Positions 3,910 through 28,462 of a DNA stretch of 33,525 nt are shown here, piece after piece. Under the pieces are notes generated by a model that saw nothing but the letters and a program-made list of their open reading frames with translations, made no database searches and was not told where the DNA came from. This DNA comes from a virus, in IMG/VR virus record IMGVR_UViG_3300033064_008226, positions 1-33,525 of that record. One strand, written 5' to 3'. The position numbers and the translations under genes were made by a program. Every line of letters starts with the position of its first letter. Within the stretch, counting starts at the first letter, position 1.

Positions 3910-4310
3910 CCCATGCCGACCTCATCAAACAAGGATACACACGGGGACCAGGTGGTTCCTACGACCGTCCACCTGCGACTCCCAGGCAGACTCCCAAGTT
4001 GGAACCAACTGCTCGCCATGCACCACTGGTCTCGCAGCAAACTGAAGGCTCAAATAGCCAAAGATTTTTTGTTCGCGTTACGAGTGTCCGCAAACGACTC
4101 CTCGACGAAGACAACCTCTGCGAAAAATTCCATGTCGATCTTTGCAGATACTCTGGAATCTTACTTGGAGACGAAGCGGACAAAACGCACATCGAAACGA
4201 CTCAGCGCAAAACCCAAAAAGGTGAAGAGGAACACACGCTCATCGAAGTGACTCACTTGCCTCAGGCGAATGCTAATCACCCCCCAAAATCCTTGTCAAG
4301 TCAAATTTGA
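3906..4310 (+). CDS. RusA-like Holliday-junction resolvase (frame with the catalytic half)
   Basis: A protein of 134 residues. The C-terminal half contains LLDEDNLCEKF (about 65-75) and GILLGDEADK (about 84-93), fitting RusA acidic residues Asp-x-Asp-Asn...Lys and a later Asp (D67, D69, K74, D89). RusA enzymes are dimeric nucleases that cut Holliday junctions formed during recombination. The first ~50 residues in this frame are Pro/Thr-rich and do not look like the RusA N-terminus. That part is instead present in the overlapping frame starting at 3913 (LPGRLPSWNQLLAMHHW). The two halves can be joined by a -1 shift at TTTTTTG (4065-4071). It may be expressed as read here, or as a frameshift fusion of about 132 residues, close to the family's length. 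The stop lies inside the 4306 copy of the repeated motif. Confidence 0.65.
   Translation: MTHADLIKQGYTRGPGGSYDRPPATPRQTPKLEPTARHAPLVSQQTEGSNSQRFFVRVTSVRKRLLDEDNLCEKFHVDLCRYSGILLGDEADKTHIETTQRKTQKGEEEHTLIEVTHLPQANANHPPKSLSSQI
3913..4251 (+). CDS. Overlapping frame with RusA-like N-terminal half
   Basis: The 112-codon frame has VHLRLPGRLPSWNQLLAMHH (about 19-38), resembling the PG.PPS.N start of RusA-like proteins, and a basic helix to about residue 52. After the T6 run at 4065-4070 the sequence becomes Ser/Thr/Lys-rich and no longer resembles the family, just where the 3906 frame starts to. It is most simply the upstream half of a -1 frameshifted gene; a separate overprinted protein is also possible. 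Confidence 0.35.
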   Translation: MPTSSNKDTHGDQVVPTTVHLRLPGRLPSWNQLLAMHHWSRSKLKAQIAKDFLFALRVSANDSSTKTTSAKNSMSIFADTLESYLETKRTKRTSKRLSAKPKKVKRNTRSSK

Positions 4311-4318
4311 CTGATACC
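4306..4318 (+). promoter_or_regulatory. Repeated regulatory motif, copy 1 (before small terminase)
   Basis: TTTGACTGATACC touches the ATG at 4319. This copy also forms half of a perfect 14-base palindrome, AGTCAAATTTGACT (4299-4312). No Shine-Dalgarno lies between it and the start. Confidence 0.6.
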
Positions 4319-4774
4319 ATGCCAACCGTGAAAAAAGTCGTAGCGAAAAAAAAGTTGGGTCAACCAACCAAGCAGACGCCAGCGATCATCAACGAGATCC
4401 TGCAACGCATCGCGACTGGCGAACCGCTGGAGGTCATCTGCCGGTCTCCTCACATGCCGGGAGTGCGTGCTGTCCATCTCTGGAAGAGTAAAGATGCGAT
4501 ACTAAATGCAGCCTTCGCGTGCGCGAGAGATCAGGGGTTCGATGCGATTGCTGCGGACTGCCTGGAGATTACCGACCAGACCGGGCGCGACACGATCATA
4601 GGTGATGATGGTAACGCACGCCAGGACTCCGAGTGGATTGCGCGTTCGCGTCTGCGGGTGGATACCAGACTCAAGTTGCTGGCGAAGTGGTGTCCGCGCC
4701 GGTACGGTGAGAGGATCGAGGTCGAGCAGACAGTGGCGGCACAACTGCGGATCGTGATGGGTGGAGATGTCTGA
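4319..4774 (+). CDS. terS: Terminase small subunit
   Basis: A protein of 151 residues. After a Lys-rich start there is a helix-turn-helix-like region (INEILQRIATGEPLEVIC ... VRAVHLWKSKDA, about 22-60) and the family-like SEWIARSRLRVDTRLKLLAKW (about 107-127) followed by PRRYGER. Small terminases bind the packaging site and regulate the large subunit. The large terminase follows with an 8-base overlap. ATG 4319 is preferred; TTG 4307 in the same frame is part of the repeated motif, which recurs elsewhere out of frame with its gene, so it is unlikely to be coding. Confidence 0.85.
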   Translation: MPTVKKVVAKKKLGQPTKQTPAIINEILQRIATGEPLEVICRSPHMPGVRAVHLWKSKDAILNAAFACARDQGFDAIAADCLEITDQTGRDTIIGDDGNARQDSEWIARSRLRVDTRLKLLAKWCPRRYGERIEVEQTVAAQLRIVMGGDV

Positions 4775-6095
4775 GGTCGTCGAGTTGGAGATCCGCCCGC
4801 GCCGGCAGTTCCGACCCTACCTGGAGCGGACCCAGAGGTGGGCATGCATGGTCGTGCATCGCCGGGGGGGGAAGACGTTCGTGTGCATCCAGGATCTGCT
4901 CGCCCGGGCGATCACGCATAGCAGGCCCGGTCCCCCGCTGCGGTATGCGTACATCGCGCCAACCAGGGATCAGGCCAAGGACATTGCGTGGGCATATGTG
5001 AAGAACTACGTCTCGCGGATCCCCGGGGTGAAGATCAATGAGGCGGATCTGATGGTCACGCTGCCCAACGGTGCGACGATCCGGCTATATTCCGGTGACA
5101 GCTACGAACGGATGCGCGGGCTTTTCCTCGACGGGGTGGTCATCGATGAGTTTGCCGACATCGATCCTGCGGCATGGCACTCTGTGTTGCGTCCGTGTCT
5201 GACAGATTACAACGGGTGGGCGACGTTCATCGGCACTCCGAAGGGGAGGAACATCTTCTGGCGACTGTGGACTGCTTCGCTCAACGATCCGGCATGGTTT
5301 TCACTTATGCTCAAGGCGAGCGATAGTGGCATCATCCCGCCGGCAGAACTCAACGACATCCGAGCCAGCACGCCGAAGCACATTTTTGAGCAGGAGTACG
5401 AATGCTCGTTTGCGGTGGGTCGCCCGGGTGCGATCTACGTCAGGCAACTGGAGCAGGCACGCAATGCGAAGCGGGTCAGCAACGACACCCTGTGGTTCGC
5501 GGAACTGCCTGTCTACACGTCGTGGGATGTCGGCGCTCCTCTCAACCAGAAGGTCTGGATCTGGCAGTTGGTCGGGGACAGGATCAACTACCTCGAGGCA
5601 CTGAGCGGCAGCGATGACTGCAAGACCCCGGCAGACTGGGCTGCGAGGCTCAAGTCGAAGCAGTATGCCTACGGGTCGCACTTCCTTCCACACGATGCTT
5701 GCGCAGTGAATGGTGGTCTCTGGCAGTCGGGCCTTGCCACTGCCGGCCTCGACGGGGTCGTGCCTGTGCCGCGCCAGTTCTCGGTGTGGGATGGGATCAA
5801 CCTTGGACTGAGTTCGTTTGTGCGGTCCTTTTTCAACGAAAGCGGGTGCGCAGACGGGATCGATGCGCTCGATGCCTACCACAGCAAGGAGGAGCGGGAC
5901 GGGGTGACCATCAAGGACGTGCCTGTCCACGACTGGGCATCTCACTATTGCGATGCGTTTAGTCTCTCGCACCAAGCGATATCCCGGGGACTCATCATCG
6001 ACCGCAGCGCCATCGCAAAGAAACCGACATCAGGATCCGGCGCGAAGGTCATCGCCGGGTTCCGAGGTGGGTTCTCGGGGAAGGTCAGGAGATGA
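4767..6095 (+). CDS. terL: Terminase large subunit
   Basis: A protein of 442 residues, the usual size for the family. The ATPase has an HRRGGKT Walker A variant (near residue 31), an IAPTRDQAKDIAW segment, Walker B GVVIDEFADI (near 125) and a coupling-like GTPKGRN (near 155). The C-terminal nuclease half has acidic candidates in TSWDVG and near HDWASHYCDAF. The enzyme pumps DNA into the procapsid and cuts the concatemer. ATG 4767 is preceded by GGTGGAG; the frame is open slightly upstream, but that lies inside terS. The following gene starts in an ATGA overlap (6092-6095). Confidence 0.93.
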   Translation: MSEVVELEIRPRRQFRPYLERTQRWACMVVHRRGGKTFVCIQDLLARAITHSRPGPPLRYAYIAPTRDQAKDIAWAYVKNYVSRIPGVKINEADLMVTLPNGATIRLYSGDSYERMRGLFLDGVVIDEFADIDPAAWHSVLRPCLTDYNGWATFIGTPKGRNIFWRLWTASLNDPAWFSLMLKASDSGIIPPAELNDIRASTPKHIFEQEYECSFAVGRPGAIYVRQLEQARNAKRVSNDTLWFAELPVYTSWDVGAPLNQKVWIWQLVGDRINYLEALSGSDDCKTPADWAARLKSKQYAYGSHFLPHDACAVNGGLWQSGLATAGLDGVVPVPRQFSVWDGINLGLSSFVRSFFNESGCADGIDALDAYHSKEERDGVTIKDVPVHDWASHYCDAFSLSHQAISRGLIIDRSAIAKKPTSGSGAKVIAGFRGGFSGKVRR

Positions 6096-6481
6096 CAATC
6101 CAGCAGGAGATCGCCCGTCTCTACTCGCTCCACCCGCAGCCTCGCACGTTCTCGGAGGAGGTCGAGGCACACTCATGGAATGGGTTCGTCCTCAACCTGC
6201 CTACATTGGTCATGCTGGCAAGGCCGGTGGACATCTACGACGCGCAGGAACGCTGGCGAGACCCATGCCACATATGGACACGCGATGAGCAAAACTGCTG
6301 GTTCATCACCCTCTATTGTGGTATCAGTCAAAATAATCCTTGTAATTATGCGCCATATGAGTTGCCATTCGCGGCGTGGTCGCGCCGGGGCAAACCGTTG
6401 CGTGTCCACAAAACCGCAACCCTAAAACGATTATGCGCCTCGATGACCCTCTCCTCAACCCGCTTCTCTATCGGTCCGTAA
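6092..6481 (+). CDS. Hypothetical protein after terminase
   Basis: 129 residues, family not recognised. It begins MTIQQEIARLYSLHPQPRTF and has an aromatic, Cys-containing centre (WRDPCHIWTRDEQNCWFITL) and basic C-terminus. Its ATG overlaps the terminase stop, so it belongs to the packaging operon. DNA from about 6300 to 6360 is AT-richer than its surroundings and holds a reverse-oriented copy of the repeated motif (6320-6333), read here as GISQN. Its C-terminal 16 codons overlap the next ORF. Confidence 0.6.
   Translation: MTIQQEIARLYSLHPQPRTFSEEVEAHSWNGFVLNLPTLVMLARPVDIYDAQERWRDPCHIWTRDEQNCWFITLYCGISQNNPCNYAPYELPFAAWSRRGKPLRVHKTATLKRLCASMTLSSTRFSIGP
6320..6333 (-). promoter_or_regulatory. 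Repeated regulatory motif, reverse copy inside a gene
   Basis: The plus strand reads GGTATCAGTCAAAA, the exact reverse complement of TTTTGACTGATACC. It is the only copy in this orientation and lies within coding sequence. No minus-strand gene follows, which argues against a translation signal. Confidence 0.55.
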
Positions 6482-6891
6482 ATTTCTTCGGAGGGGGAGC
6501 AAAGGGACCGTCGGCGGCATCACAGCAGGCGTCGGCCTTGCAGAATGAGCGGATGATGCAGCAGCAGCAGGCACAGACACTGCAAGCGAGTCAGGCACAG
6601 CAAGCATCTATTGCGCAGGCGCAGGCGCAGCAACGTGCGCAGAGTCAGCAGATGGCGATGATGAGGGAGCAGCAGACCGCAAGCCTCGCCAACCAATCGG
6701 CTCAACTCGCTGCGGTGAAGGCATCGCAGCCTGTCATCTCTCCTGCCTCCCGGGCAATGGATTCGTCCAGCCAGATCGCTCAAGACCAGCAGATAGCGGC
6801 AGCGAGACGCACCGGATACCGCAGGTCTATCCTGGCAGGCGAAGCGAACCAGTCTGTCCCCCTCACAACCGGACGCAGCACCCTGGGTTGA
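6433..6891 (+). CDS. Gln-rich coiled-coil protein, probable virion component
   Basis: 152 residues from the ATG at 6433. Residues about 30-115 are very rich in Gln, Ala and Met (MMQQQQAQ, AQAQAQQRAQSQQ), predicting a long helix. The C-terminus has ARRTGYRRSILAGEA, a type of ending I recall in small structural proteins encoded next to podovirus portals. No enzymatic motif is visible. Its position between terminase and portal suggests a head-assembly or minor internal protein; this is inference. It overlaps the end of the preceding gene by 49 bases. Confidence 0.65.
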   Translation: MRLDDPLLNPLLYRSVNFFGGGAKGPSAASQQASALQNERMMQQQQAQTLQASQAQQASIAQAQAQQRAQSQQMAMMREQQTASLANQSAQLAAVKASQPVISPASRAMDSSSQIAQDQQIAAARRTGYRRSILAGEANQSVPLTTGRSTLG

Positions 6892-6899
6892 TTTTCCTG

Positions 6900-6913
6900 T
6901 TTTGACTGATACC
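6900..6913 (+). promoter_or_regulatory. Repeated regulatory motif, copy before portal
   Basis: TTTTGACTGATACC ends two bases before the portal ATG. The match with the 8925 copy extends upstream to 20 bases (6894-6913: TTCCTGTTTTGACTGATACC). No plausible -10 box lies 16-18 bases downstream of its TTGACT. Confidence 0.6.
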
Positions 6914-6915
6914 GA

Positions 6916-8583
6916 ATGAAAGGATCCCCCTTAGTCGAAAAGGTACTGCGGAGACACCAGGATCTGGTCGGACAGCGGGCGATCTGGGAACCATTCTGGG
7001 AGGACATTGCCAGTTACGTCATGCCTCGGAAATCAGGCACGATATTCAACAAGACCCGCAATCCCGGGGCGGAAAGCGAGACTATGCTGTTCGACTCTAC
7101 GGCAGTGCGGGCGAACATGATCCTCGCCAATGGGCAGTTGTCGTGGATGACACCTCTTGAGAGCCGATGGTTTTCTATGGATCCGCCAAAGTCGATGGAG
7201 GAGATGGACAAGGTCGAGCAGTGGTTCAAGACCTGTACCGAGGTGGTGCAGGCCGAGCTTGCCCGCAGCAACTTTTACACAGAGATTCACGAATTGTATT
7301 TGGACCGGGGTTGCTTCGGGACTGCGGCGATTCTGGTCGAGGGTGGTCGGGCGCAGGCGCTCAACTTCACGAAGTTGGACATCGGTTCATTCGCCATTGC
7401 CGAGAACGATGAGGGCTATGTGGACACACTGACCCGGGAGTACGAGTGGACATCGCGCCAGTGTGCGCTGAAGTTCGGCGAGCAGGCACTCTGCGAAACG
7501 ATGCGCAGCGATCTGGAGAACGGAGACTCGCAGAAGAAGTTTGTGATCGTGCATGCGATCTATCCTCGCGGGCCAGGAGAGATCGAGATTGGCAAGATGG
7601 ATGGACCGAACAAACCCTACGCGAGCGTCTATGTGGATAAGGCGAACAAGCACGTCTTGCTTTCCAGCGGGTTCGACGAGCAACCTTTTTTCTGCACCCG
7701 ATATCTGAAGTGGCGCAACTCTGAGGTCTACGGGTACTCGCCTTCCTGGGTCGCACTGCCGGAAGCACGGCAGTTGAATTTTCTGGAAAAACAACTGGAT
7801 GCGCTCGCCGAGTTGGCAGCGTTTCCGAGGATGCTCATTCCTGCCGGATACGATGGGGACATTGACCTGCGTGCTGGTGGTGTCACCTACTTCGACCCGA
7901 ACAACCCGGGCGCGAAACCCATCGAGTGGGGGACGCAGGGACGCTACGATGTCGGACTCAACCGGGCGGAAGTGAAACGCAATGCGATCAATGAGGCATT
8001 CCATGTCGATTTGTTCAAGATGTTTGCCCAGCTGGAGAAGCAGATGACGGCACGGGAAGTCGCCGAGCGCAGTTCGGAGAAGCTGATTCAGTTCTCGCCG
8101 ACGTTCGCCCGCATGACGACCGAGCTTTTCAATCCGATGCTGCGCAGGGTCTTTGCTTTGCTCGCACGTCAGGGTAAGTTCCCGCCGCCGCCGCAGGAAC
8201 TCCAGATGACCGGGTTCATCCCCGAGCCGGAAGTGTCGTACTCCTCACGAATCGCACTGGCGATCCGGCAACTGGAGAACAACGCCTTCGCCCGCACTTC
8301 CGAGATGCTGCTCCCCTATGCGCAGATCAAACCTGACATGCTGGATAATTTTGACTTCGACGAGATCACCCGGGACATGGCACGCAATGATGGTCTCCCG
8401 GCCCGGTGGTTGCTCGATGAGGAAATGGTCGCCCAGTCCCGTGCAGCACGCTCGCAGGCTGCGCAGCAGCAGGCACAGCAGCAGCAGATGACTCAGACGG
8501 CAGAGGCAATGGGCAAGGTGGGGGCAGTGAAGTCTGACTCACTGGTCGGGCAGGCACTCGGCGCTCAACTCCAGGGACAATGA
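6916..8583 (+). CDS. Portal (head-to-tail connector) protein
   Basis: 555 residues, typical of T7 gp8-type connectors. Family-like landmarks are WEPFWEDIASYVMPR (about 24-38), ETMLFDSTAVRANMILANGQ (about 56-75), YLDRGCFGTAAILVEGG, VYGYSPSWVALPEARQLNFL (about 275-294) and MTAREVAERSSEKL (about 376-389). Twelve copies would form the DNA channel and the docking site for tail proteins. The last ~50 residues are Gln/Ala-rich. Translation probably starts at ATG 6916 directly after the repeated motif; no strong Shine-Dalgarno is visible. The next gene overlaps by ATGA (8580-8583). Confidence 0.92.
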   Translation: MKGSPLVEKVLRRHQDLVGQRAIWEPFWEDIASYVMPRKSGTIFNKTRNPGAESETMLFDSTAVRANMILANGQLSWMTPLESRWFSMDPPKSMEEMDKVEQWFKTCTEVVQAELARSNFYTEIHELYLDRGCFGTAAILVEGGRAQALNFTKLDIGSFAIAENDEGYVDTLTREYEWTSRQCALKFGEQALCETMRSDLENGDSQKKFVIVHAIYPRGPGEIEIGKMDGPNKPYASVYVDKANKHVLLSSGFDEQPFFCTRYLKWRNSEVYGYSPSWVALPEARQLNFLEKQLDALAELAAFPRMLIPAGYDGDIDLRAGGVTYFDPNNPGAKPIEWGTQGRYDVGLNRAEVKRNAINEAFHVDLFKMFAQLEKQMTAREVAERSSEKLIQFSPTFARMTTELFNPMLRRVFALLARQGKFPPPPQELQMTGFIPEPEVSYSSRIALAIRQLENNAFARTSEMLLPYAQIKPDMLDNFDFDEITRDMARNDGLPARWLLDEEMVAQSRAARSQAAQQQAQQQQMTQTAEAMGKVGAVKSDSLVGQALGAQLQGQ

Positions 8584-8873
8584 CCGAAAAAGATACAGCA
8601 GATCTGAATCGCGAGCGTGAGCGCCAAAGCACGATCAATGCCTATCGCAGGACGTTTGAGAGTGCCGATGGCAAGATCGTCCTGGAAGACATGCGGCGCT
8701 CATTCAAGACAGATGCCCAGGCATTCCTCGCAGGGTATGAGTTCAACCCGATTGTCGCAGCGATCCGAGACGGTCAACGTGGTGTCGTTCTGCATATCAA
8801 TGACATGTGCCTGCGACCCGTCGTCGCCGATTCGTTGGTCGTCGCACCGAAAGCAAGGATCCGCAGAAAATGA
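8580..8873 (+). CDS. Bbp19-like phage protein
   Basis: 97 residues with AYRRTFESADGKIVLEDMRR (about 21-40) and IRDGQRGVVLHINDM (about 62-76). This pattern matches small proteins of the Bordetella-phage Bbp19 type that follow podovirus portals. It is probably a structural or assembly accessory; the precise role is unknown. ATGA overlaps at both ends (8580-8583 and 8870-8873) place it in a coupled portal-scaffold operon. Confidence 0.75.
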   Translation: MTEKDTADLNRERERQSTINAYRRTFESADGKIVLEDMRRSFKTDAQAFLAGYEFNPIVAAIRDGQRGVVLHINDMCLRPVVADSLVVAPKARIRRK

Positions 8874-9067
8874 AAACCAAACCCACACGCAAGAAACCTG
8901 TCACGCTGCCGGAATCCGTTCCTGTTTTGACTGATACCAAGGAACCACCGATGGACCCGGCAAGCGGGGACAAGACGCCGGCCTGGGTGGAGTGGCTGCG
9001 AGACACCGACCCTGCGGCATTTGCGGCTCGATACAAGGACCGCACGACGCACCTGGGGAAAATGTGA
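8870..9067 (+). CDS. Small hypothetical protein between portal and scaffold
   Basis: 65 residues with the C-terminal segment WVEWLRDTDPAAFAARYKDR followed by TTHLGKM. The start is set by the ATGA overlap with the previous gene. A copy of the repeated motif lies within it and reads VLTDT. An alternative start after the motif (ATG 8951) would give a 38-residue protein preserving the conserved-looking C-terminus. Confidence 0.6.
   Translation: MKTKPTRKKPVTLPESVPVLTDTKEPPMDPASGDKTPAWVEWLRDTDPAAFAARYKDRTTHLGKM
8925..8938 (+). promoter_or_regulatory. Repeated regulatory motif, copy upstream of scaffold
   Basis: TTTTGACTGATACC lies within the 8870 ORF, 133 bases before the scaffold ATG and 13 before ATG 8951. 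It shares the 20-base extension with the portal copy. Confidence 0.55.
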
Positions 9068-9070
9068 TTT

Positions 9071-9949
9071 ATGGAAGGCAACGATACTCCCTCTGAGGGT
9101 TCACTCCTCGAAACAGGGACAGCACCAGCAACGCCGGAAGAAGGCGTTGAAACCCCGAACGAAACCGCGCCGGCAGAAACCTCCGGTGATGCGCCGAAGG
9201 CATACGTCAACGCCGATGGGACGCTTGCCGATGGATGGGCGGATAGTCTGCCCGAGGATCTGAACCCATACAAGGCGTCGGTCAAGAACATGAAGGGTGT
9301 GCCTGATCTGGTGAAAGCACTCGGCAACGCAAACCATCTCATCGGCAAGAAGCTCGGTGTGCCTACCGACAAGTCGTCGCCCGAGGAAGTGGCTGCGTTC
9401 CGCACCGCACTCGGTGTGCCTGAGTCGGTCGAGGAATACAAGTTTGCGCCGAGCGCCATGCCGGAAGGCATGACCTGGAGTGATGAGATGAGCAAGCCAT
9501 TCGCAGCTATCGCGCACAAGCACGGGATCCCGCCCGGTGCGATGACTGCGCTCGCCGACCAGTTTGCCCAATACGAGTCCGCAAAGTTAGGCGTGATGCA
9601 GGAAGGGTTCGACGCGCAACGCAAGTCGGCAATCGCCACCCTCCAGCAGGAATGGGGTGCAAAGTTTGACACGAATATCGCCACCGCAAAGCAGGCCGCG
9701 AAACTTGCCGGCGTGGACAGCAACTCGTCGGGGTTCTCGGACCCAGAGGTCGTGCGTGGATTTGTGCGCCTTGCTGCGATGATGAGCGAGGACAAGATCG
9801 GTCGCGTGAGCGGAGGCAGCGAACTCCTGTCAGGCAGCGCCCGGGCCAAGGACATCATGACCAACGCCGATAACGCCTGGTACAAACGCTACCAGGAGGG
9901 TGACGCCGAAGCAGTGGCGATGGTCACCAGTCTGCTCAGGAATAAATAA
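9071..9949 (+). CDS. Scaffolding-like protein
   Basis: 292 residues, acidic and largely helical. It has a disordered Thr/Pro/Glu-rich N-terminus (about 1-45) and then a conserved-looking core: LPEDLNPYKASVKNMKGVPD, KKLGVPTDKSSPEEVAAFRT and LGVPESVEEYKFAPSAMPEG. This composition and its position between portal and major capsid match T7 gp9-type scaffolds, which template procapsid assembly and leave before packaging finishes. It starts four bases after the preceding stop. No protease motif is seen. Confidence 0.8.
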   Translation: MEGNDTPSEGSLLETGTAPATPEEGVETPNETAPAETSGDAPKAYVNADGTLADGWADSLPEDLNPYKASVKNMKGVPDLVKALGNANHLIGKKLGVPTDKSSPEEVAAFRTALGVPESVEEYKFAPSAMPEGMTWSDEMSKPFAAIAHKHGIPPGAMTALADQFAQYESAKLGVMQEGFDAQRKSAIATLQQEWGAKFDTNIATAKQAAKLAGVDSNSSGFSDPEVVRGFVRLAAMMSEDKIGRVSGGSELLSGSARAKDIMTNADNAWYKRYQEGDAEAVAMVTSLLRNK

Positions 9950-9955
9950 TAATTT

Positions 9956-10026
9956 TGCAGGATGGAGAAGGGGGATCTCGTCACGCTCATACCGTGGAGT
10001 CCCGGGTTCAAATCCCGGTCCTGCTA
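9956..10026 (+). tRNA. tRNA-Met (CAT)
   Basis: A 71-base cloverleaf can be drawn. Acceptor GCAGGA pairs with TCCTGC (9957-9962 with 10019-10024; the outermost pair is a T-T mismatch). The D arm is GAG...CTC. The anticodon stem TCACG/CGTGG holds loop CTCATAC, with anticodon CAT at 9988-9990. The T arm is CCGGG-TTCAAAT-CCCGG. CCA is not encoded. The anticodon stem lacks the three G-C pairs of initiator tRNA, so elongator Met, or lysidine-modified Ile, is more likely. Confidence 0.8.
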
Positions 10027-10220
10027 TCTTTTTTGAAGAAATGTTTTGACTGATACCGATAAAGTCGGTATAGGGATGGTCAGTTGAGCAGACAACTCCT
10101 TTTGGAATCTGTTCCCGAAAAAACCTTCGTTCCGACGATCTGACTCATTGAGTCCGACAACCGGGGGAAGAGGGAGCAGTTAGCAATCCAAAAAAACTCA
10201 ACCAAAAGGAAACCAATCCC
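10027..10220 (+). other. Capsid gene leader (no ORF)
   Basis: A 194-base intergenic stretch between the tRNA and the capsid gene. It holds the repeated motif with a promoter-like extension, a small hairpin (AGTTG at 10082 with CAACT at 10093) and, before the capsid ATG, an AAAAGGA Shine-Dalgarno within a CAACCAAAAGG tract. Nothing else was recognised. A long leader would fit a heavily expressed, stabilised capsid mRNA. Confidence 0.5.
10044..10074 (+). promoter_or_regulatory. Repeated motif plus -10-like box upstream of capsid
   Basis: TTTTGACTGATACC (10044-10057) contains TTGACT (10046-10051), and TATAGG follows after exactly 17 bases (10069-10074). This fits a sigma-70-like promoter for the capsid gene. 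The conserved GATACC beyond TTGACT is not part of a -35 box and suggests an additional binding protein. Confidence 0.5.
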
Positions 10221-11123
10221 ATGTCTGCTATTACTCAGATCCCTGAGCATTTTGCAACGCAGTTCGACACGAACTGGCGTCAACTTGTTCAACAGAAAAA
10301 CTCGCGTCTCAAAGACCGGGTGACCCTCGACTCAATCTCCGGTAAGGAGAAAAGCTACAACCAGATCGACGAAGCGTCGATGCAGTTGATCACCGCTCGC
10401 GCCGGGGAAACCCGCATCACCGATCAGGCGACTGCCAAACGCTGGATCCGTCCCGTTGCCTACGACACGGCTAAAGTGTTTGACGAATTTGACGAGCAGT
10501 TGCTCGGCGAGATCGTCCTGCCCACCTCACCTGTCGTGCAGTCTCACGGCGCAGCCTATATGCGCACCTGCGATCAGGTGATCATCAATGCGCTCGGCGG
10601 CACTGCTTACACCGGCGAAAGCGGAACGACTGCTGCCAACCTTGCCTCGGCAAACCAGGTCGCTGTTGACTTCGTGGAAAGCGGATCTACCGCCAACTCC
10701 GGTCTCACCATCGCGAAACTGCGTCAGGCCAAATACATCCTCGACGCCTTTGAGGTCGATGACGACGAAGAACGTATCTTCGTTCTGAGCGCCAAACAGT
10801 TGCAGGATCTTCTCGGAACCACCCAGGTGGGTTCGGTTGATTACAACAGCGTAAAGGCACTGGTTGACGGGGCACTGAAATCCTTCATGGGGTTCACGTT
10901 CCGCCGCTCGCAGTTGCTTGACCGGGTTGTCGCAACGGACGTGCGTTCGTGCTACGCCTACGTCAAGTCGGGAATCACCCTGGCCGAACGTGGACTCAAG
11001 ACCCATATGGACGTGCGTGTGGACCTCAGTCATTCCCTGCAAATCCGCAGCGTGGCTAGTCTCGCTGCCGTGCGCATGGAAGAGAAAAAAGTCGTGCAGG
11101 TGTTCTGCGACGAATCCCCATAG
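10221..11123 (+). CDS. Major capsid protein
   Basis: 300 residues with family-like segments FDTNWRQLVQQKNSRLKDRV (about 15-34), KRWIRPVAYDTAKVFDEFD (about 74-92), GLTIAKLRQAKYILDAFEVD (about 156-175) and FRRSQLLDRV. It resembles the phage capsid family found in many podoviruses with HK97-like folds and needs no obvious prohead-protease domain. Its own leader, preceded by the motif/promoter and followed by decoration gene and terminator, indicates a strongly expressed capsid transcription unit. The start is supported by AAAAGGA upstream. Confidence 0.9.
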   Translation: MSAITQIPEHFATQFDTNWRQLVQQKNSRLKDRVTLDSISGKEKSYNQIDEASMQLITARAGETRITDQATAKRWIRPVAYDTAKVFDEFDEQLLGEIVLPTSPVVQSHGAAYMRTCDQVIINALGGTAYTGESGTTAANLASANQVAVDFVESGSTANSGLTIAKLRQAKYILDAFEVDDDEERIFVLSAKQLQDLLGTTQVGSVDYNSVKALVDGALKSFMGFTFRRSQLLDRVVATDVRSCYAYVKSGITLAERGLKTHMDVRVDLSHSLQIRSVASLAAVRMEEKKVVQVFCDESP

Positions 11124-11626: not shown

Positions 11627-11639
11627 CAATCCCCCCCGC

Positions 11640-19069: not shown

Positions 19070-22000
19070 ATGGCAAAAGCAGATTCCATCGGTTACGAGA
19101 GTGGTCTTGGCAAGGCTAGTCCAGACAATCCTGAGACGGCAAAGGCGCTTGCTGATTACCAGCAGGGTGAAGTTGCGGATGATACATATAGCCGGATATT
19201 CACCGACGTTGCGTATTACAAGAAAATCGAAGGGTCTGCGATGGTGCAGGATGCTCTCTCGCTCTCGCCATTCAAGGGAGCCGCAGTAAAACGTGGTGCG
19301 TTGATGGGGTTCCTCTCGGCCAAGCTCGGACGGGATGTCACTGCTCTGGATTACGAGGCAAGCCGGAATGGGTTCGCGCAGGCTAATTACGGCAAGGACA
19401 AGGTGACCGATGACGAGATGTTCGGTCTTGTCAAAACAAGTTTCGAGGGTCAAAAAGCCCGGGCCGGATATCGGGACCAACTGATGGGGACAATTGCTCT
19501 TGCCCACTTCCGAGGCGAACACCCCAACACGGTGGAAATCCTCCAGCAGCACAAGGTTCAGAATCCTGACTTCTCCAAGGGACTGAGTGGCGAGGACGAG
19601 GCGAACATGATCGCCTCCATGTCGGTAGCGTCTCAGGAAATCAGTGCGCAATTTGAAAAACATTCCGGCACTGCGAAGCGACTCTACGATGCGGTGACTG
19701 CCCAGACCGGGCAGGCCGGCAAGCCGGGATATGCAATCCCTTACTCGCAGGGTGGGTTGCCGCTTCCCACGCAGGGTGGTGGTGCGTTGCCAACGACCGT
19801 TGACACGTCGGAGATGAATGATGCTGTTTCCGAGCTTATTAATATGCCGGCAAAAGACCGGAATGTGATTTATTCGACGATACTGCTGGCAGCGCAACGC
19901 GAAGGCTACGACCCCAAAACCGTCCTGGGTCAACTCGGCGAAAGGCTGGGACGCACGACCTTCGGGGCAGTCGGACAAGTCACCCGGGTATTCTACGAGG
20001 ACGCACTGCGTGGTGAGAATGACAAACTGCGCAATCCCTCCAGCCAGATCTATGTGCCCGGTGTCGGGGGAATTCCCTTGCAATCCAGTTCGCAGATGAC
20101 CCAGCAGGAGACCGAAAGCAAGATCGCCGGGAACGATGACAAAATCAAGGCGATCACGGTCATGCGCGAGATCAGCAACCTGGCCGAACAGGTAGACCCG
20201 ATCAAGGTCGTGCAGGATTCTTGGATGCCGGCCTTGATGCAGAAAGGCGCAGATGTCGCAGTGGGGTCTGTGGGATTGATGGCAATCTCTGCGATCCCAT
20301 ACGCAGGACCGGCTGCGGCATTCTCGATGTATTACGCGAGCAACAGCGAGCAGATCGCCATTGAGTCGCCTGACCTCGACCCGACGCTTCGCCGGAATCT
20401 CTCGATAGCGATGGCAATCCCCGAGGCGTTGATGGACCGTCTGCAACTCAAGATCCTGCAAGGGAAAGCGCCATCCTTCGTGAAGGCGCTCAAGGATGTG
20501 AAGGCATCAAAACTTGGTGCGGTCGGTCTGATGAAACAATGGGGGAAACATTCGCTTGAGATGGGTCTCTTTGAGACAGGTGTCGAACTCCCCCAGAATT
20601 TCATCAAGGTTGTCGGGAACCAACTCGGGATGGCGCTTTCGGCGGATTATCACAAGACCGAATTCCTCGATGATGTTGCCCAATGGTGGGATGTTGCACC
20701 GGAGACGCTTGTCGGGATGATGCTCGTCGGCATGGTCGGTGGAGGATTTGCTGCGCACACAGACATAAAGAATGGTGCTGCTCTCATCACTCACATCGAG
20801 CCGCTGCGGTGGGCTGGGATGACTGAGGAACAGGCGTTGGATATTTCCACCCAACCATCGGCAGACGCTGCGCAGGAAAAGCTCAGAGAATTCTACAAAC
20901 TCCGCACACCGGAGAGTATCGCCGAGGGGGTGAAACTCGCAAACGAGGCTGCGGCGAAGATCCGCGAAGACGCGAACCGGCCCGGGCCGAAGATCACCAC
21001 CGAGACCAACGGTGATGGTGGTATCGTCTACCAGGTCCGGCGAGCGGACGATTCCATCGTCCATAGCACGACCGAGGAGATGTCCGCAGACCTGATGCTG
21101 CGCGAACTCAACCGCAATGAGATCACGAAGACCACCAGGGGCATTGCAGAGGCGACAGAGTGGTATGACAAGGTCAACGCTGCGCTCAGTCGTGGTGAGG
21201 ATATTTCAAAACTACTTCTTGAGGAAGCACCCAGGACACTGCTCGCCGACTACGTCGAGAATCCCACCAAGGCAAACCTCGAGCGTCTCTACGAGACCGT
21301 GCGTTCGATAGGCCATGAGATCAACACACCGGAACAGTTGGCGAACTATTGGGTCGAGGCGAGCAATATCAGGGTCGGTGGAGTCGAGGACATGGTCTAC
21401 CGTTCGCTCATCCGCCTCAACGTGAACAACGCGACCGGGGTCTCGGTGCTGCGTGACATGGCACAGGAGAATTTCAAGCGGGCGCTACATGAGGGTCGCT
21501 ACTCAATCCAATGGGCAAGGGAGCAACTGCAAGCGATCATCCCGCTTATCGACTCCTCACGCATTAAGGGCAAACTACGAAGCGAGACCGACACCGATGT
21601 GATCGAGGCATGGTCGGATGTGGCAGTCGCCTACATGCGCGGATTCGTGAAGGACGAGCAACTGCCGACCGGGATCAGGGGATTCCTGCGTCAGATGGCG
21701 ACAGTTGTCAAAGACATCTTCCGCCGCTCTTACAAACTGCACCGGCTGCGTGCGGAGGGGAAACTCGACACGAACCTGGAGGCAGCGATTGCTGACAGCA
21801 TCGGACTCAACTCCCAGGCCCGGGTCGATGTCGCCCGGGACTCCACTGCGGCGAAGATTGACGGCATGAATTACAGTGTCTCCACTGCCGAAGACACCCG
21901 CTACCTAGACCTCGCGAAAGACCCTGAGAAAAATCGGGCGGATGTTTTGGCCGATTTGTCAGCAAAAGCTCTCAAAGCCCTTTCAAATCCTGAAGAATTT

Positions 22001-25000
22001 CAGACATTCCGGCTTCAGAACATGGCGGAGCCATTCATTCCGTTGGTGCGCGCTCTTGGGGGACAGATTGAAATTGACTCTCCTGGTTCGTTTTACATTG
22101 GGATCAGACTGCCGATTGACACGGAAAGTCTTGATGACGCGCAGGAAATCAAAGACATCCGCGTGACGATTCGAGATCATGACGTTGCGCAATCAACGCT
22201 TGCTCACGGAAGACTCACAAAAGTCATCATGGTTACGGACATGAATGATCCGGCTGCTGTTGAGAATGGGGGAACTCGGGCCGTAAAGTATTTGTCTGAT
22301 GAACTGAAACCTTACATCGGATGGCTTTTTGAAAACGCAGACGCCGAAACCCTTTCGAGTTTCGGCGTTGCTGGAATCAAGACTTCCCCGAAGGGAGCAG
22401 CGGATAAATCCGGTGTAGCTGACTTGCAGCCAGGGAGTGGAAGTGCGCTGACAAGCGGACAATCATCCGAAGTTGCCCAGCTTGTCAACCCCAAAAACCC
22501 TGACACCCTCGCGCCGGGGGATGGCGCGAATTATTCAATCTCTGCTGCCGAGGACGCACGCTATCTAGACCTTGCCAAAGACCCTGAGAAGAACCGGACT
22601 GTATTGCAGACGATGGTGGATGCGGCGGCGAAAGGCAAAATAAAGGTTTGGCGCGGAGATCAGTCTGCAATTCAAAAATTTGATAAATTAAAACGGTCTG
22701 GGAATTTCACTTCCGCCATTGGCTTTTCTTTCACAAGTGATAGGGGCACGGCGGAGGGTTACGGAGAACCTCGACAATTTTTTATAGATGCCAAACGAAT
22801 ATACTCCTTAGATTATATAAAAGATCGCGGAGTATCTGATGATGCCTTCGGATTTGATGAAGAGGCACTTTCTGAATTGCTTGGATTGGCAGATGTTGAC
22901 ACAGCCGACGAATCCGCGATTGCTGCATGGTGGAGCAGCATAAAGGCTGACGTTGTGAGAATTGACAATATTGATGATAGCGACATTGTTGGAATTGGGG
23001 TTTACGGTGGAGACATTGAACGCAAAGCAACTCTTTATTTTGTTAAAGATGCTAACCAAATCAAATCCGCCGACCCCGTAACCTACGATGCTGCCGGCAA
23101 CGTCATCCCACTTTCCGAGAGGTTTAACCCATCGCTCGACAACATCAACTACTCGATATCCATGACGGTCGCACCCGTCAGGCGTGATGCACTGGATAAT
23201 TTCAAAAAAGGTGAAATGCAGAAGCGTGCAACGTCTGCAAAATTCATTCATCTCAAGCAAGTCATCGACGACGTTGCTGTTGCATATGGAGTGAATATCG
23301 AGGCACGGCAACCAGTCATCGGCGGATGGGTTGAGTCTGGTCAAATGAGTCTTGAAGTGCCAGAAGTCGTTCTTTTTGACACAAACGACATGGATCTTGC
23401 GGAGGAAATGGCAGCGATCATCGGAGCATCTGCGCCAGAACTCCAAAGTGCCGTGATGATCTGGAAGGATGACGACAACGGGACAGACACGGTCCTCCAT
23501 TTTAAGGCGAAAAGCGCAGATGGTGCGCTTGAAATCGCAAAGGATCTCAATGCTGCCGGGATGAATGGGTTCACATATGACACGAACACCAGAAAGTTTT
23601 CCCTTGTGTTGGCGGGTCTTTCGACGGAAGATGTATCAACAGTCCATGAGTTCATCAAAGACCATACCGAGCAAAGCCGCATTAGCACTAGCGGAGGCAC
23701 TCAGGCGAGGTCGGGATCCGCTCGATTCCCGTCCGAAGGCGACTACCGACGACATTTGCAAAATGCTCGGAGCCGAGCGGATTTATACGGGCAAGGACAG
23801 CAACGTGAAACCCTCAACGATGTTATTTCTCGGGCAGAAAGACGAGTAGACCGGAATGCTGGTGCGCTAAAGATCTCGGCGAAGGCGAAGAAGATCCTCC
23901 AAAAACTCACGCAACCGCTTACTGCGGCAATTGCGATTGAGAAGGAACTCGCAGGCAAGAAGTTCGACAACATCCGGCAACTTGGGCTTTACCTGGATGG
24001 CAGGTTTAACCAAGTCTACGGGAAACCGTATTTCAAGATCGGAGGTCAAGAGGGTCTGGATATCGCATCCGATGCGCTTGTCTACGATATCGTCGATGGG
24101 CTTGCTGGGGACGGTTCCGGCATGGGGTGGTATGACGAAAGGGTGCAGGAGACCTTCCGCGAATTGACAAAGATCCACCCCGAGTTCGCAACGGATCAAG
24201 ATGCATTGGCAGTGTATATCGGTATCCTGACTTCAACTTCGCAAGGGTATACGGTCGTCCAGAACTTCAAGCAAGCGAACAGAGTTTACGAATCGTACAA
24301 AAAAACTGGAAGACTTCCTGCTGACTTCAAATTCGCTCAAGCCCATGAACCGATAAATGCCAACCTGGCTCAAATCCAAGCAATCATCGATGAGTATGGA
24401 TTGAGCGGGTATACGAAATTCATGGATTCCCTAGTCACCGGGAAGGCACTCAGGGAACGATTTGGCGAACTCCCATCAGGAGTCACCCTACAGGACAAGG
24501 TGCGCGGGAACAGGGTTCTTGGTCCGAAGATCGGGTCGTTCTTCAATAACATCAGGGGTCGCTTCGATACGATCACGATGGATCTCTGGTATACCAGGAC
24601 GATGCATCGCTTCTTGGGTCAGGCAGTGGTCCCGCTTGACTCTGGGAAGATGCAAGGAGCGATTGCGAAGTTTCGTGATGAGATACAACGTGAAGGTGCG
24701 CGAACTTACGGAATAGATATTGTGGACGCACTGAAGGACGACGAGTCCACTGTGCAGGCCGGCTTGACCTTGTTCCAGAGATGGGCAAGAGGGGACAATG
24801 ACTATACTGAAAAAGGCTACTTCAAATTCAGCGATGGATATAAAATAGAAAAAGCATCCCGCCTCCTTTTCGCCATTGGAGGGATGAAAGGAGCGCCTCA
24901 AAATAAATCCTATAGGACATACTTCGCAGGAGTGGTCCTTGAAGCGAAGGCGAAACTTGGCAAACTCGGGCTGAAACTCACTGAGGCGGATATGCAAGCC

Positions 25001-28000
25001 ATCATCTGGTATCGGGAGAAGAATCTATTCGCTCGCACTGGAGTTGCCAATGCGGCTGCGAAACCAGCAGACTACCTCGATGCTGTCATGGTCCTGCGTG
25101 CCGGGGGACAGGCAACCGAGGATGACGATCCAGCCGATAGTGGAGGCACTGAAGACACCAACTACTCGATCAACACCCAGGCCGAGATCGACCGGGTGAA
25201 CACTGCGCTCGACGGGATGAACCGTGGACCGGATTCCCGGCTCGATGTCTACAACCGTGCGAAGTGGGTCTTCGGGAAACTCCTCGACGAGAACAAGAAT
25301 CTGCTCGACACGATCAAGGCGACTGATGTCCCTGACGCTGCGCCGGCAATACAGTCCGTCGAGAATGAGCGTGCTGCGGCACAGGCAGACCTCCAGATTG
25401 ACGAGGAGGCACAGGTCAAGGAGGCGTTGACCGACAATGCCGACGCATTCCTGCCGAGGATCGCTGCCGCGCCGGAAGGGTCCGAGCGCCGGAAGGTCGA
25501 GCGAGATTCCATCGCACGCGAGAAGAGCATCGAGAAGGGTATTCGCGAGACGTTCAACGAACGACGCAAGGCGATTGATGAGACGGCAAAAGTAGAGACC
25601 AAAAAGATCGAGGTCCACCACGCCGCGATGACCACGCTCGGGGATGCGAAGCTGAAGGGCACGATGCGCCACACGAAGTTGCTCCAGGCTATCGGCGAAC
25701 TCGATGCGATCTTGTCGGTGCTGCCGGCAGAGGTGCGAGGACGGGTGGGTGGTTTTTCGACGCTGGCGAACGTAGGGACGGGGGACCGGGCACTTGGGAA
25801 ATTCTTCGCGAAGCGGATTGCGATGATCGACAAGGAACTGGAAAGGGTAATGTCCCGGGACTACCGGGAGGCAATCCTCAAGGCACTCAAAGGATCTCGC
25901 CCGAAGCGTGGTGACAGCGGGGTCAGGAAATCCACTTTGGGCGCAGATGCGCAGGCATATGCAGACCGGGTCTTGCGGGCGACCCTGCTCGACAATGACG
26001 CAACCTCGGCGCGGTTGGTCGCTATCGAGGCCGGCATCGCCACTGCATCACCCGAGGCACGCATCGACCTGGCCGAGGAATGGGGGATCCTCAATACCTT
26101 CGGCGACCTAGAGAACCGCAGCGCCGACACGCTGGCGCAGGGACTGGAGGAACTCCAGACGACGCTCAAGGAGGGTCGGGCCGCATGGCGGATCAAGGAG
26201 CAGGACAGGATCAATACGCAGCGGGAACGTGCAGGGAAGATCATCGGGGCACTTGGGAATGCCGGGAAGATTGGTCGGTTCAAGGAAAAGAAGAAAATTC
26301 AGAGAATCATCGATCAGGCGACTGCCTACGGACTCGACCACGCTTCGTTCGCGCAGTTCATTGAGGCAGTGCTGCAAGACCCCGAGACTGCCGCTGAGTG
26401 GTCGAAGGCAATGCGGATCGCCGACACCGGGTCGCAGGACATGGAGATCCAAATGAGAGGGGATTTCCTCAATGCTCTGCGGGCTGCGGCAAAGGCCGGC
26501 GATATGTCCACCGGCGCCGGGGTGAAGGCGCTAAAGACCGTGGTGAAGTCGAGTGTGCGTGCGCTCGATGGCAGGATGGTGACCGATGAGCGGATCTCTA
26601 TCGAGCTTGCCGAGAAGATCGTGCGTGGTGCTGCGGACCCCGGGAAGCTCAACGCGACGGACATCGAGACCCTGCGGGCCGAACTCGCTGCGCTGCCGAA
26701 GGACACCCAGAAGGAGTTCGTGACCATCCAGCGGGTGATCTCGCGTGGTGTCGAGGTGAAGCTCGATATGACCCCGGCGCAGGGTATACAGTTGCTGCTC
26801 TCCTGGGGGCAACCGGACGTGCAGGACAAGATGCGTCGTGAGGGGTGGTCCGACGAGAGTATCGCGGACATCGAGGAGATCACCAAGGACACTGTCTCGC
26901 AGGGTGTGCTGGCATACCTCAAGGATTTCTACGCATCCGCACACAAGGTGGTGAACCCGGTTTACGCGAACATGTTCGGCATGAACATGCCGCGAGTGAA
27001 GGACTACGCACCGACCAGGTTCCTGCACAGCAAGGACAGCAACGAGGTGGGTCTCGACGGGTCGCCGGTGATGAGCGGGTCGCTGCCCGGGTTTGCCAAG
27101 TCGCGTGTGACGCACTCAGCGCCTATCGCGCCGGCAGACGCTTTGACTGTCTTCCAGCAGCATGTCGTGCAGACTGCGCACTGGGTGAACTTTGCCGAGT
27201 TCGCACGGGAGGTGCGTGCGGTCACCGGGAATGTGGATCTCCGAGAGTCGATCAAGCAGACTGCTGGCGAGGGTGCGCTGCGGTCGATGGATGCCTGGGT
27301 CGAGTTGATCGAGCAACGGGGAGGGAACAAGGCACGGGAAGTAGCGTGGCTCAACCAGATGCTGGGGTCGCTCATGTCTGCCAAGGCGATCTCGGGCCTT
27401 GGGTTCAATATGAAGTCGGTCCTCATGCAGACTGACTCGGCGATGAGGTTCATGCTCGCGATGAACCCGAAGCAGATATTCTCGGCGCTGGCAAACCCGG
27501 CTCAACTGGCGGCAGACATGCCAACGGTGTGGCGCTCGCAGACTATCCAGCGACGGATCCTTGGGGGAATGAACCCCGAGGTGCAGTTCCTCTTCTCTCA
27601 GACCGGCAACAACCCTGGACTGCTCGGCAGTCTTGCCCATGCTTCGATGCAACCTTTGCAGTTTTTGGACGCTGCGGCGACCACCCTGTCCTCGGCAATG
27701 GTATTCCGGTCGGCATTCAACGAGGCACTCGATGCCGGCATGGGCGAGGTTGAGGCGCAGAGGCAGGCACTCGATGCCGTTGATGAGGTCGTCTACAAGT
27801 TCTCTCAGCCCACCGGGTTCGGATCGAAGTCGATAGTCGAGAACACCAGTGGCGCAGTGATGAAGACGTGGATGATGTTCATGTCGGACCCTCGGTTGAA
27901 GACGGGGATCATGCTTGCAGCAGCACGGGACATCGCAGCAGGGAAGAATGTGGGAATGAACATCCAGCGGATCGCCGTGATAGAGGCAATGTCGGTACTC

Positions 28001-28402
28001 TCCCACGTCCTCGGATGCCTGTACCGTGACTGGCTCAGTGATGACAACGACGAGGACATCTGGTCCAAAGGAGGGTTTGCGAAGGCGATCCTTCTTGCTC
28101 CTCTCCAGGGACTCTTCATAGCCGGGACGGTGTCGGAGGTCACATTCTCCAAGATCACCGGGGGTAGACTCTTCGCGCCGAGCCAGAACCCGCTCATCGA
28201 TATCATCTCGTCCGCAGACCGTGCGGTGAAGAACCTCGACAATGCACTCCAGCCAGACGACCCGGGCGCGATGTTGCGCGAATGGACAAATATTCTCCGC
28301 ACTATCGCCATCACCCCATCCCTCGGTGTGGTCGCAGCACTGCTGAACATCATCAAACCGTTCGTCGGCGCTTACGAGAACTCGCAGAAAGAGGAGGAGT
28401 AA
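19070..28402 (+). CDS. Giant polyvalent internal virion protein (3110 residues)
   Basis: This one ORF takes 28% of the window. Residues 1-930 are an ejection-protein-like region with Gly/Ala-rich hydrophobic segments (about 394-425 and 543-562) that could cross a membrane. NYSI-type linkers at about 934, 1154, 1360 and 2031 separate modules: 935-1150, unknown; 1160-1357, ADP-ribosyltransferase-like (KVWRGD, FSFTSDRGTAEGYG, closing QIKSADPVTYDAAGNVIPLS); 1360-1590, unknown; 1590-2015, a polyvalent-protein domain with GWYDERVQ, GPKIGSFFNNIRGRFD and AIIWYREKNLF. Residues 2035-2650 are mostly coiled coil. From about 2650 to the end is a helical region (FNMKSVLMQTDSAMRFM, MKTWMMFMSDPRLKTG) seen at the ends of such phage proteins. 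It is probably injected with DNA. The 935-1590 modules are visibly AT-richer than the rest. Confidence 0.85.
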   Translation: MAKADSIGYESGLGKASPDNPETAKALADYQQGEVADDTYSRIFTDVAYYKKIEGSAMVQDALSLSPFKGAAVKRGALMGFLSAKLGRDVTALDYEASRNGFAQANYGKDKVTDDEMFGLVKTSFEGQKARAGYRDQLMGTIALAHFRGEHPNTVEILQQHKVQNPDFSKGLSGEDEANMIASMSVASQEISAQFEKHSGTAKRLYDAVTAQTGQAGKPGYAIPYSQGGLPLPTQGGGALPTTVDTSEMNDAVSELINMPAKDRNVIYSTILLAAQREGYDPKTVLGQLGERLGRTTFGAVGQVTRVFYEDALRGENDKLRNPSSQIYVPGVGGIPLQSSSQMTQQETESKIAGNDDKIKAITVMREISNLAEQVDPIKVVQDSWMPALMQKGADVAVGSVGLMAISAIPYAGPAAAFSMYYASNSEQIAIESPDLDPTLRRNLSIAMAIPEALMDRLQLKILQGKAPSFVKALKDVKASKLGAVGLMKQWGKHSLEMGLFETGVELPQNFIKVVGNQLGMALSADYHKTEFLDDVAQWWDVAPETLVGMMLVGMVGGGFAAHTDIKNGAALITHIEPLRWAGMTEEQALDISTQPSADAAQEKLREFYKLRTPESIAEGVKLANEAAAKIREDANRPGPKITTETNGDGGIVYQVRRADDSIVHSTTEEMSADLMLRELNRNEITKTTRGIAEATEWYDKVNAALSRGEDISKLLLEEAPRTLLADYVENPTKANLERLYETVRSIGHEINTPEQLANYWVEASNIRVGGVEDMVYRSLIRLNVNNATGVSVLRDMAQENFKRALHEGRYSIQWAREQLQAIIPLIDSSRIKGKLRSETDTDVIEAWSDVAVAYMRGFVKDEQLPTGIRGFLRQMATVVKDIFRRSYKLHRLRAEGKLDTNLEAAIADSIGLNSQARVDVARDSTAAKIDGMNYSVSTAEDTRYLDLAKDPEKNRADVLADLSAKALKALSNPEEFQTFRLQNMAEPFIPLVRALGGQIEIDSPGSFYIGIRLPIDTESLDDAQEIKDIRVTIRDHDVAQSTLAHGRLTKVIMVTDMNDPAAVENGGTRAVKYLSDELKPYIGWLFENADAETLSSFGVAGIKTSPKGAADKSGVADLQPGSGSALTSGQSSEVAQLVNPKNPDTLAPGDGANYSISAAEDARYLDLAKDPEKNRTVLQTMVDAAAKGKIKVWRGDQSAIQKFDKLKRSGNFTSAIGFSFTSDRGTAEGYGEPRQFFIDAKRIYSLDYIKDRGVSDDAFGFDEEALSELLGLADVDTADESAIAAWWSSIKADVVRIDNIDDSDIVGIGVYGGDIERKATLYFVKDANQIKSADPVTYDAAGNVIPLSERFNPSLDNINYSISMTVAPVRRDALDNFKKGEMQKRATSAKFIHLKQVIDDVAVAYGVNIEARQPVIGGWVESGQMSLEVPEVVLFDTNDMDLAEEMAAIIGASAPELQSAVMIWKDDDNGTDTVLHFKAKSADGALEIAKDLNAAGMNGFTYDTNTRKFSLVLAGLSTEDVSTVHEFIKDHTEQSRISTSGGTQARSGSARFPSEGDYRRHLQNARSRADLYGQGQQRETLNDVISRAERRVDRNAGALKISAKAKKILQKLTQPLTAAIAIEKELAGKKFDNIRQLGLYLDGRFNQVYGKPYFKIGGQEGLDIASDALVYDIVDGLAGDGSGMGWYDERVQETFRELTKIHPEFATDQDALAVYIGILTSTSQGYTVVQNFKQANRVYESYKKTGRLPADFKFAQAHEPINANLAQIQAIIDEYGLSGYTKFMDSLVTGKALRERFGELPSGVTLQDKVRGNRVLGPKIGSFFNNIRGRFDTITMDLWYTRTMHRFLGQAVVPLDSGKMQGAIAKFRDEIQREGARTYGIDIVDALKDDESTVQAGLTLFQRWARGDNDYTEKGYFKFSDGYKIEKASRLLFAIGGMKGAPQNKSYRTYFAGVVLEAKAKLGKLGLKLTEADMQAIIWYREKNLFARTGVANAAAKPADYLDAVMVLRAGGQATEDDDPADSGGTEDTNYSINTQAEIDRVNTALDGMNRGPDSRLDVYNRAKWVFGKLLDENKNLLDTIKATDVPDAAPAIQSVENERAAAQADLQIDEEAQVKEALTDNADAFLPRIAAAPEGSERRKVERDSIAREKSIEKGIRETFNERRKAIDETAKVETKKIEVHHAAMTTLGDAKLKGTMRHTKLLQAIGELDAILSVLPAEVRGRVGGFSTLANVGTGDRALGKFFAKRIAMIDKELERVMSRDYREAILKALKGSRPKRGDSGVRKSTLGADAQAYADRVLRATLLDNDATSARLVAIEAGIATASPEARIDLAEEWGILNTFGDLENRSADTLAQGLEELQTTLKEGRAAWRIKEQDRINTQRERAGKIIGALGNAGKIGRFKEKKKIQRIIDQATAYGLDHASFAQFIEAVLQDPETAAEWSKAMRIADTGSQDMEIQMRGDFLNALRAAAKAGDMSTGAGVKALKTVVKSSVRALDGRMVTDERISIELAEKIVRGAADPGKLNATDIETLRAELAALPKDTQKEFVTIQRVISRGVEVKLDMTPAQGIQLLLSWGQPDVQDKMRREGWSDESIADIEEITKDTVSQGVLAYLKDFYASAHKVVNPVYANMFGMNMPRVKDYAPTRFLHSKDSNEVGLDGSPVMSGSLPGFAKSRVTHSAPIAPADALTVFQQHVVQTAHWVNFAEFAREVRAVTGNVDLRESIKQTAGEGALRSMDAWVELIEQRGGNKAREVAWLNQMLGSLMSAKAISGLGFNMKSVLMQTDSAMRFMLAMNPKQIFSALANPAQLAADMPTVWRSQTIQRRILGGMNPEVQFLFSQTGNNPGLLGSLAHASMQPLQFLDAAATTLSSAMVFRSAFNEALDAGMGEVEAQRQALDAVDEVVYKFSQPTGFGSKSIVENTSGAVMKTWMMFMSDPRLKTGIMLAAARDIAAGKNVGMNIQRIAVIEAMSVLSHVLGCLYRDWLSDDNDEDIWSKGGFAKAILLAPLQGLFIAGTVSEVTFSKITGGRLFAPSQNPLIDIISSADRAVKNLDNALQPDDPGAMLREWTNILRTIAITPSLGVVAALLNIIKPFVGAYENSQKEEE
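21866..22597 (+). repeat. Duplicated NYS-linker repeats flanking a module
   Basis: Two related ~69-base segments begin at 21866 and 22529. They encode NYSVSTAEDTRYLDLAKDPE and NYSISAAEDARYLDLAKDPE and differ mainly at third codon positions. They bracket one AT-richer module; shorter NYSI copies lie at 23147 and 25160. They could act as homologous joints for module exchange. Confidence 0.75.
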
Positions 28403-28431
28403 AAAAACCAGAAATCCCTTGAAATTATTCG

Positions 28432-28462
28432 TTTTGACTGATACCAACGCACAATCTAAAAT
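28432..28462 (+). promoter_or_regulatory. Repeated motif with -10 box (promoter for tail/lysis block)
   Basis: TTTTGACTGATACC (28432-28445) contains TTGACT (28434-28439). TAAAAT (28457-28462) follows after 17 bases, a 5/6 match to the -10 consensus. The gene's ATG starts six bases after the -10, so the transcript could be leaderless or nearly so. Confidence 0.6.

Follow-up and report, generated by a model that had tools for sequence, protein, structure and literature searches.

A stoperator-like asymmetric motif at the late-gene starts of Verrucomicrobia podoviruses and a small phage protein as its candidate reader

Stoperators are a well-worked exception that is known mainly from actinobacteriophages. 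In the cluster A mycobacteriophages the stoperators (L5, GGTGGMTGTCAAG; Bxb1, GTTACGWDTCAAG) are asymmetric sites of 13-14 bp that lie at gene boundaries with an orientation bias, overlap a promoter at one or more places, and have a consensus that shifts coherently between phage groups (PMC3029335, PMC6550527; the L5 system is also covered in PMC9283540). The phage LRRHood carries a cluster A repressor without the sites (PMC3029335). Cluster K mycobacteriophages contain Start-Associated Sequences (SAS, GGGATAGGAGCCC), which are asymmetric 13-bp elements placed just before start codons (PMC3203893). Stoperator-like sequences are also described outside the Actinobacteria, namely the 22-bp repeats of T1/Stevie and the motifs of the Nostoc cyanophages A-1/N-1 (PMC4319613, PMC4916379), and in alphaproteobacterial phages CtrA sites are dispersed in promoter regions (PMC9437464).

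The motif described here resembles the cluster A stoperators in that there are multiple asymmetric sites of ~13 bp mainly at gene boundaries, at least one site overlaps a promoter (the capsid promoter, in 18 of 18 sequences), and the spelling differs coherently between phage groups. It differs from them in the type of phage and the host phylum, in the number of sites per genome (5-12 compared to 24-34), and in a looser orientation rule, under which one orientation predominates within a class (5 of 6 sites in the window) and the orientation at homologous places inverts between spelling classes. The candidate reader is a helical protein of 60 aa rather than a two-domain HTH repressor of 183 aa, and the motif is not tied to the immunity-type genes. 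Read as its reverse complement (CTTGACAKCCACC), the L5 site matches the class B spelling (CTTGACTGACACC) at 11 of 13 positions, a likeness that is no test of kinship. The T1/Stevie and A-1/N-1 elements are likewise asymmetric intergenic repeats, but their sequences differ from the motif, and no reader candidate is proposed in the parts of those reports drawn on here. If podoviruses of Verrucomicrobia have a network of this kind, roadblock operators distributed over a genome would have evolved more than once.

The DNA analysed (the window, 33,525 nucleotides) is a 33.5-kb virus record in which the portal shares 31-33% identity with the portals of HTVC010P-like podoviruses and the genes run in the order terS, terL, portal, capsid, tail, internal virion, lysis. 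A prophage relative was found in a Verrucomicrobia MAG (2.6 Mb), and the phages of this group are temperate podoviruses of Verrucomicrobia. Five exact copies of the motif TTTTGACTGATACC are present in the window, at 6900, 8925, 10044 and 28432 on the plus strand and at 6320 on the minus strand. About 0.0003 exact copies are expected by chance, in agreement with the preliminary description of this DNA, which had put the expectation far below one and had counted the same five copies. The sixth, given there as 13 bases at 4306, is a 14-mer at 4305 (ATTTGACTGATACC) with one mismatch to TTTTGACTGATACC. When up to three mismatches were allowed, eight matches were found in the window compared to 1.88 expected from shuffles, a count reached in 0 of 100 shuffles, and the reversed pattern used as a control gave no match in the window. 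Five of the six copies are oriented along transcription. The features are as follows.

4305 to 4318, plus strand: motif copy with one mismatch, abutting the terS ATG (4319); terS is PHROG 1482; syntenic in relatives
6320 to 6333, minus strand: inverted motif copy between terL and portal, within ORF 6092-6481 (GISQ on the plus strand)
6900 to 6913, plus strand: motif copy 2 nt 5' of the portal ATG (6916); portal is PHROG 332
8925 to 8938, plus strand: motif copy 5' of scaffold, within the small ORF 8870-9067 (VLTDT)
10044 to 10057, plus strand: motif copy whose TTGACT is the -35 of the capsid-gene promoter, 177 bp 5' of the capsid gene (MCP)
10069 to 10074, plus strand: -10 box TATAGG, 17 bp past TTGACT; TA at 16-17 bp in 18/18 relatives
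10086 to 10180, plus strand: conserved MCP 5' leader GCAGACAMCTCC...GAGCCTGC...GGGAGCAG, kept in relatives
28432 to 28445, plus strand: motif copy 22 nt 5' of ORF 28468 (distal structural/lysis block)

The copies upstream of terS, portal, scaffold, MCP and ORF 28468 stand where the preliminary description had placed them, and the distance to the ATG, which it had called variable (0 to over 100 bases), ranges from 0 nt at terS to 177 bp at MCP. These positions recur in other phages. In relatives with portals that are 74-78% identical, copies were found before terS, portal, scaffold and the lysis block and, inverted, behind terL; a copy also lies ~160-200 bp 5' of the capsid gene, often with a second ~60 bp 5' of it (TTTCGACTGATACC). 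Syntenic sites recur in dozens of relatives, and in most of these phages the motif ranked first in a search for repeated k-mers that was blind to it. The survey of position and orientation that had been proposed at the outset thus places the sites at fixed orthologous positions and not at random. The earlier view that the copies are not protein-driven has to be corrected in that the copies at 8925 and 6320 do sit in ORFs. The inverted copy is conserved in classes A and B and is exact in 19 of 20 non-redundant homologues. The view was borne out for this copy, which is retained directly after terL in relatives without the ORF that houses it. Conservation of the 6320 copy by its protein was therefore rejected; a codon analysis of this copy was weakly informative alone. 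Separately, TTTTGGCTGATACC (LADT) in the internal virion protein gene, seen at L088 13138 (G003 33138) and in G006, G009 and G027-G029, is a conserved coding near-match to the motif that may be protein-driven.

At least six spelling classes of the motif were distinguished. Class A is TTTTGACTGATACC, class B is TCTTGACTGACACC and class C is TTTCGACTAATCC, and the rarer classes D (TTTTGACTAAACC), E (TTTTACTAGACCC) and F (TTTTGACTAATCC) were found in single phages or small groups. Class B sites occupy the same places as class A sites, and one phage with class B (L409) has a copy at the position matching the window copy at 28432. The capsid-start site keeps a variant of its own, TTTCGACTGATACC in class A and TTTCGACTAACCC in class C. 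Classes were mixed in 0 of 130 loci, some of which overlap one another, that have at least two exact sites (81 A, 23 C, 19 B, 4 F, 2 D, 1 E). On a tree of portal and capsid the class B phages G001 and G007 nest within class A (support 98/96), and G034, also of class B, is distant. The sites are thus shown to be a coordinated set, kept in place and re-spelled jointly from class to class, and re-spelling of this kind calls for one common reader. Most sites at late-gene starts point the opposite way in classes C and F compared to classes A and B, and in class C either orientation is found 1-3 nt before start codons. Inverted sites at homologous gene starts speak for recognition of the motif as double-stranded DNA rather than as RNA. 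Antisense RNA pairing between the inverted copy and the leaders was considered and rejected, as the class C copy at the same gene shares the sense of the leader site.

A promoter can be recognised at one of the sites. In the copy upstream of the capsid gene, TA stands 17 bp past TTGACT in 14 of 18 distinct sequences and 16 bp past it in the other 4; among 170 other distinct class A and B sites, TA was found at 16-17 bp in under ~5% (1-3% per spacing). In classes C and E the motif overlaps the -10 instead, within a TTGACN-17 promoter that stands about as far from the conserved capsid leader. Late promoters of the sigma-70 type would have a -10 box at 16-18 bp from TTGAC at every copy; as no -10 was found outside the capsid gene, a promoter at every copy was rejected. 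The spacing of TA at the capsid sites alone indicates one promoter operator per genome and that the remaining sites are not promoters. The preliminary description had seen -10-like boxes behind the copies at 10044 and 28432 and had named promoters as one candidate role. The box at 10069 is kept in relatives and the one at 28457 is not, and the role survives for the capsid-upstream copy only, the others being without a -10 and mostly reversed in classes C and F.

The most likely candidate for the reader is g13, a putative DNA-binding protein of 60-70 aa that is basic and encoded beside the integrase. The window contig ends before its own g13, and the gene is known from relatives. Early regions were compared in complete and near-complete relatives, and among 713 ORF families drawn from three reference genomes only g13 was found in every motif-bearing genome (11/11) and in no motif-free one (0/7); this profile corresponds to ~3 independent gains or losses on the tree, so that shared ancestry accounts for much of it. 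Additionally, the g13 alignment was run against viral contigs, again without reference to the motif, and 77 new loci were obtained; many of their contigs overlap with ones found before, and the majority are class A. The exact motif was present in 75 of these loci, and its class was the one expected from the g13 subgroup. In L409, the most telling case, the g13 protein shares 60% identity with its counterpart in G034, a distant phage of class B, and only 32-39% with those of class A, whereas the integrase is 44-51% identical to class A and 24% to G034; g13 thus follows the motif class where the neighbouring integrase does not. A truncated site of the cognate class lies across the start of g13 in class C (TTTCGACTATGCC) and in class A (ATTTGACCTATGCC), and a class B site with one mismatch lies just 5' of g13 in L409. 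Cognate sites at or near the start of the gene suggest that g13 is autoregulated.

An AlphaFold2 model of g13 has three helices (mean pLDDT 87, pTM 0.51). Searches with g13 gave no match to a Pfam or PHROG family, no sequence match in the PDB, which includes the cluster A repressor structure 7R6R/7TZ1, and no similar fold among PDB structures or viral models. The phage G042 carries a g13 closely matching that of G028 yet is without the motif, so that g13 is not sufficient, and G042 parallels the mycobacteriophage LRRHood in that a gene for the known or candidate reader is present and the sites are absent. This complete phage (L382/G042; L405-L407) has unrelated late genes, terminal repeats of ~125 bp and an integrase-g13 module, and the module is exchanged between phage types.

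Other phage proteins were considered as readers. In each class A genome the interval between integrase and recT contains two RHH genes, which are Arc/CopG-like, and one Xis-like HTH gene. The RHH pairs are of three types, each with its own repeated local operators (GGTTTTAGTAACC; GGTGGTTATACACC; GGTGTCWGACACC), and all three are found under motif A; the class B phages also differ, with type II in G034 and a pair like that of class C in L240 and L409. The motif does not change with the RHH genes in this comparison. Similarly, two subfamilies of the Xis-like HTH_17 protein are swapped under motif A and two unrelated TerS families are found under one motif. Since the RHH, HTH and terS genes are swapped without a change in the motif, none of them is the reader. 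The strict L5 sense of the sites as operators of the immunity repressor, which would here be the RHH pair, is largely refuted by this exchange and very improbable, even with Arc/CopG-like genes in the lysogeny module and an ACACC end that one RHH operator has in common with motif B. A reader of the kind of the immunity repressor (~180 aa, HTH and stoperator domain) was not found, and no cluster A repressor-type ORF was recognised among the early ORFs inspected by eye. The comparison with L5 stoperators in the preliminary description therefore holds for how the motif appears to work (asymmetric, dispersed, at gene starts, with an orientation bias, coordinated re-spelling and one promoter overlap) and fails for an L5-style immunity repressor as its reader. 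The adjacent RHH genes are of interchangeable types with palindromic or near-palindromic operators (L087 7812-8632, L205, L207, L213, L217, L218), and the three types with their operators are candidate immunity groups.

With moderate confidence, we take the motif to be what a DNA-binding protein of the phage, most likely g13, recognises in order to regulate the late genes, in a manner that would be stoperator-like in the lysogen. There the reader would cover the single recognisable late promoter, 5' of the capsid leader, at its -35 in classes A and B and at its -10 in classes C and E. Bound at the remaining gene starts, the reader would stall RNA polymerase arriving from upstream, as at the L5 stoperators, and the particle-building genes would thereby probably be silent during dormancy. 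Binding and silencing are inferred, and the direction of regulation is taken from the promoter overlap, the non-promoter sites and the position of g13 in the lysogeny module. More tentatively, and with some doubt, a 60-aa three-helix protein may read an asymmetric site in either orientation and silence the late operon, having arisen independently of the cluster A repressors, being separable from immunity, and existing as several natural reader/site specificity pairs. If g13 is the true reader it would be a tiny and new kind of sequence-specific DNA-binding protein, and classes A, B, C and F would be natural reader/site pairs with which the simultaneous re-spelling of operators becomes testable.

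The placement of the sites at late genes and the TTGACT-16/17-TA promoter at the capsid gene would also fit activator sites, with a late regulator of the phage bound to the motif and bringing RNA polymerase to the late promoters. We consider this unlikely, as the non-capsid sites are without a -10 and mostly lie 0-14 nt before the ATG, which leaves no room for a transcript start, and as the sites are mostly inverted in classes C and F. A host DNA-binding protein could read the sites in the way that CtrA does in alphaproteobacterial phages (PMC9437464), and the class B spelling is found in two phage lineages that are far apart and could have a host in common. This is rather improbable, because the motif is missing from the host chromosome and the phage gene g13 tracks the motif class. 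The frequency in the host chromosome had been named as a check in the preliminary description, and exact class A copies in the MAG are confined to the prophage contigs C79 (related portal) and C47 (g13); at up to one mismatch there are 3 matches off these two contigs compared to 8 for the reversed control. CtrA sites differ from the motif in this respect, being read by a host protein.

A translation-level start element that is read in the mRNA, like the cluster K SAS, is improbable. Most sites do lie 0-30 nt before start codons, and the SAS are also asymmetric, placed at start codons, mostly in one orientation with a single reversed site, and absent from the host (PMC3203893). However, the SAS have a Shine-Dalgarno core, whereas the motif has no GGAG and no Shine-Dalgarno complementarity, its distance to the start ranges from 0 to over 100 bp, one copy is in a promoter 177 bp from the ATG, and the corresponding gene starts of classes C and F have the sites inverted. 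It is barely credible that the copies were left behind where modules meet, as recombination linkers or mobile short repeats: sites are found at module edges and terS is exchanged below a constant site, but the orthologous positions are fixed across distant relatives and the re-spelling is concerted.

Several minor observations concern the capsid leader, the tRNA-like sequences and the longest gene. The 5' leader of the capsid gene is strongly conserved, also in the motif-free L194, L195 and L271, and GCAGACAMCTCC...GAGCCTGC is invariant. It contains a hairpin in which 2 of 8 pairs have changed on both sides and a predicted long-range stem CUGCUCCC/GGGAGCAG. The stretch CACCUCCU in the leader is similar to the anti-Shine-Dalgarno tail of the 16S rRNA and might block the ribosome site of the capsid gene. 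An Rfam search at the gathering threshold gave no match for the leader and tRNA as the only match. The ORF at 19070-28402 encodes 3110 aa and has no PHROG match; its counterparts in relatives are ~3000 aa. A tRNA-Met gene is located at 9955-10028 of the window, just 5' of the capsid promoter, and tRNA-like 3' ends also precede the capsid-promoter site in several relatives. Near the right end of the window, at 33150-33205, there is the 3' half of a tRNA-like sequence, which is possibly an attachment-site junction with host DNA beyond.
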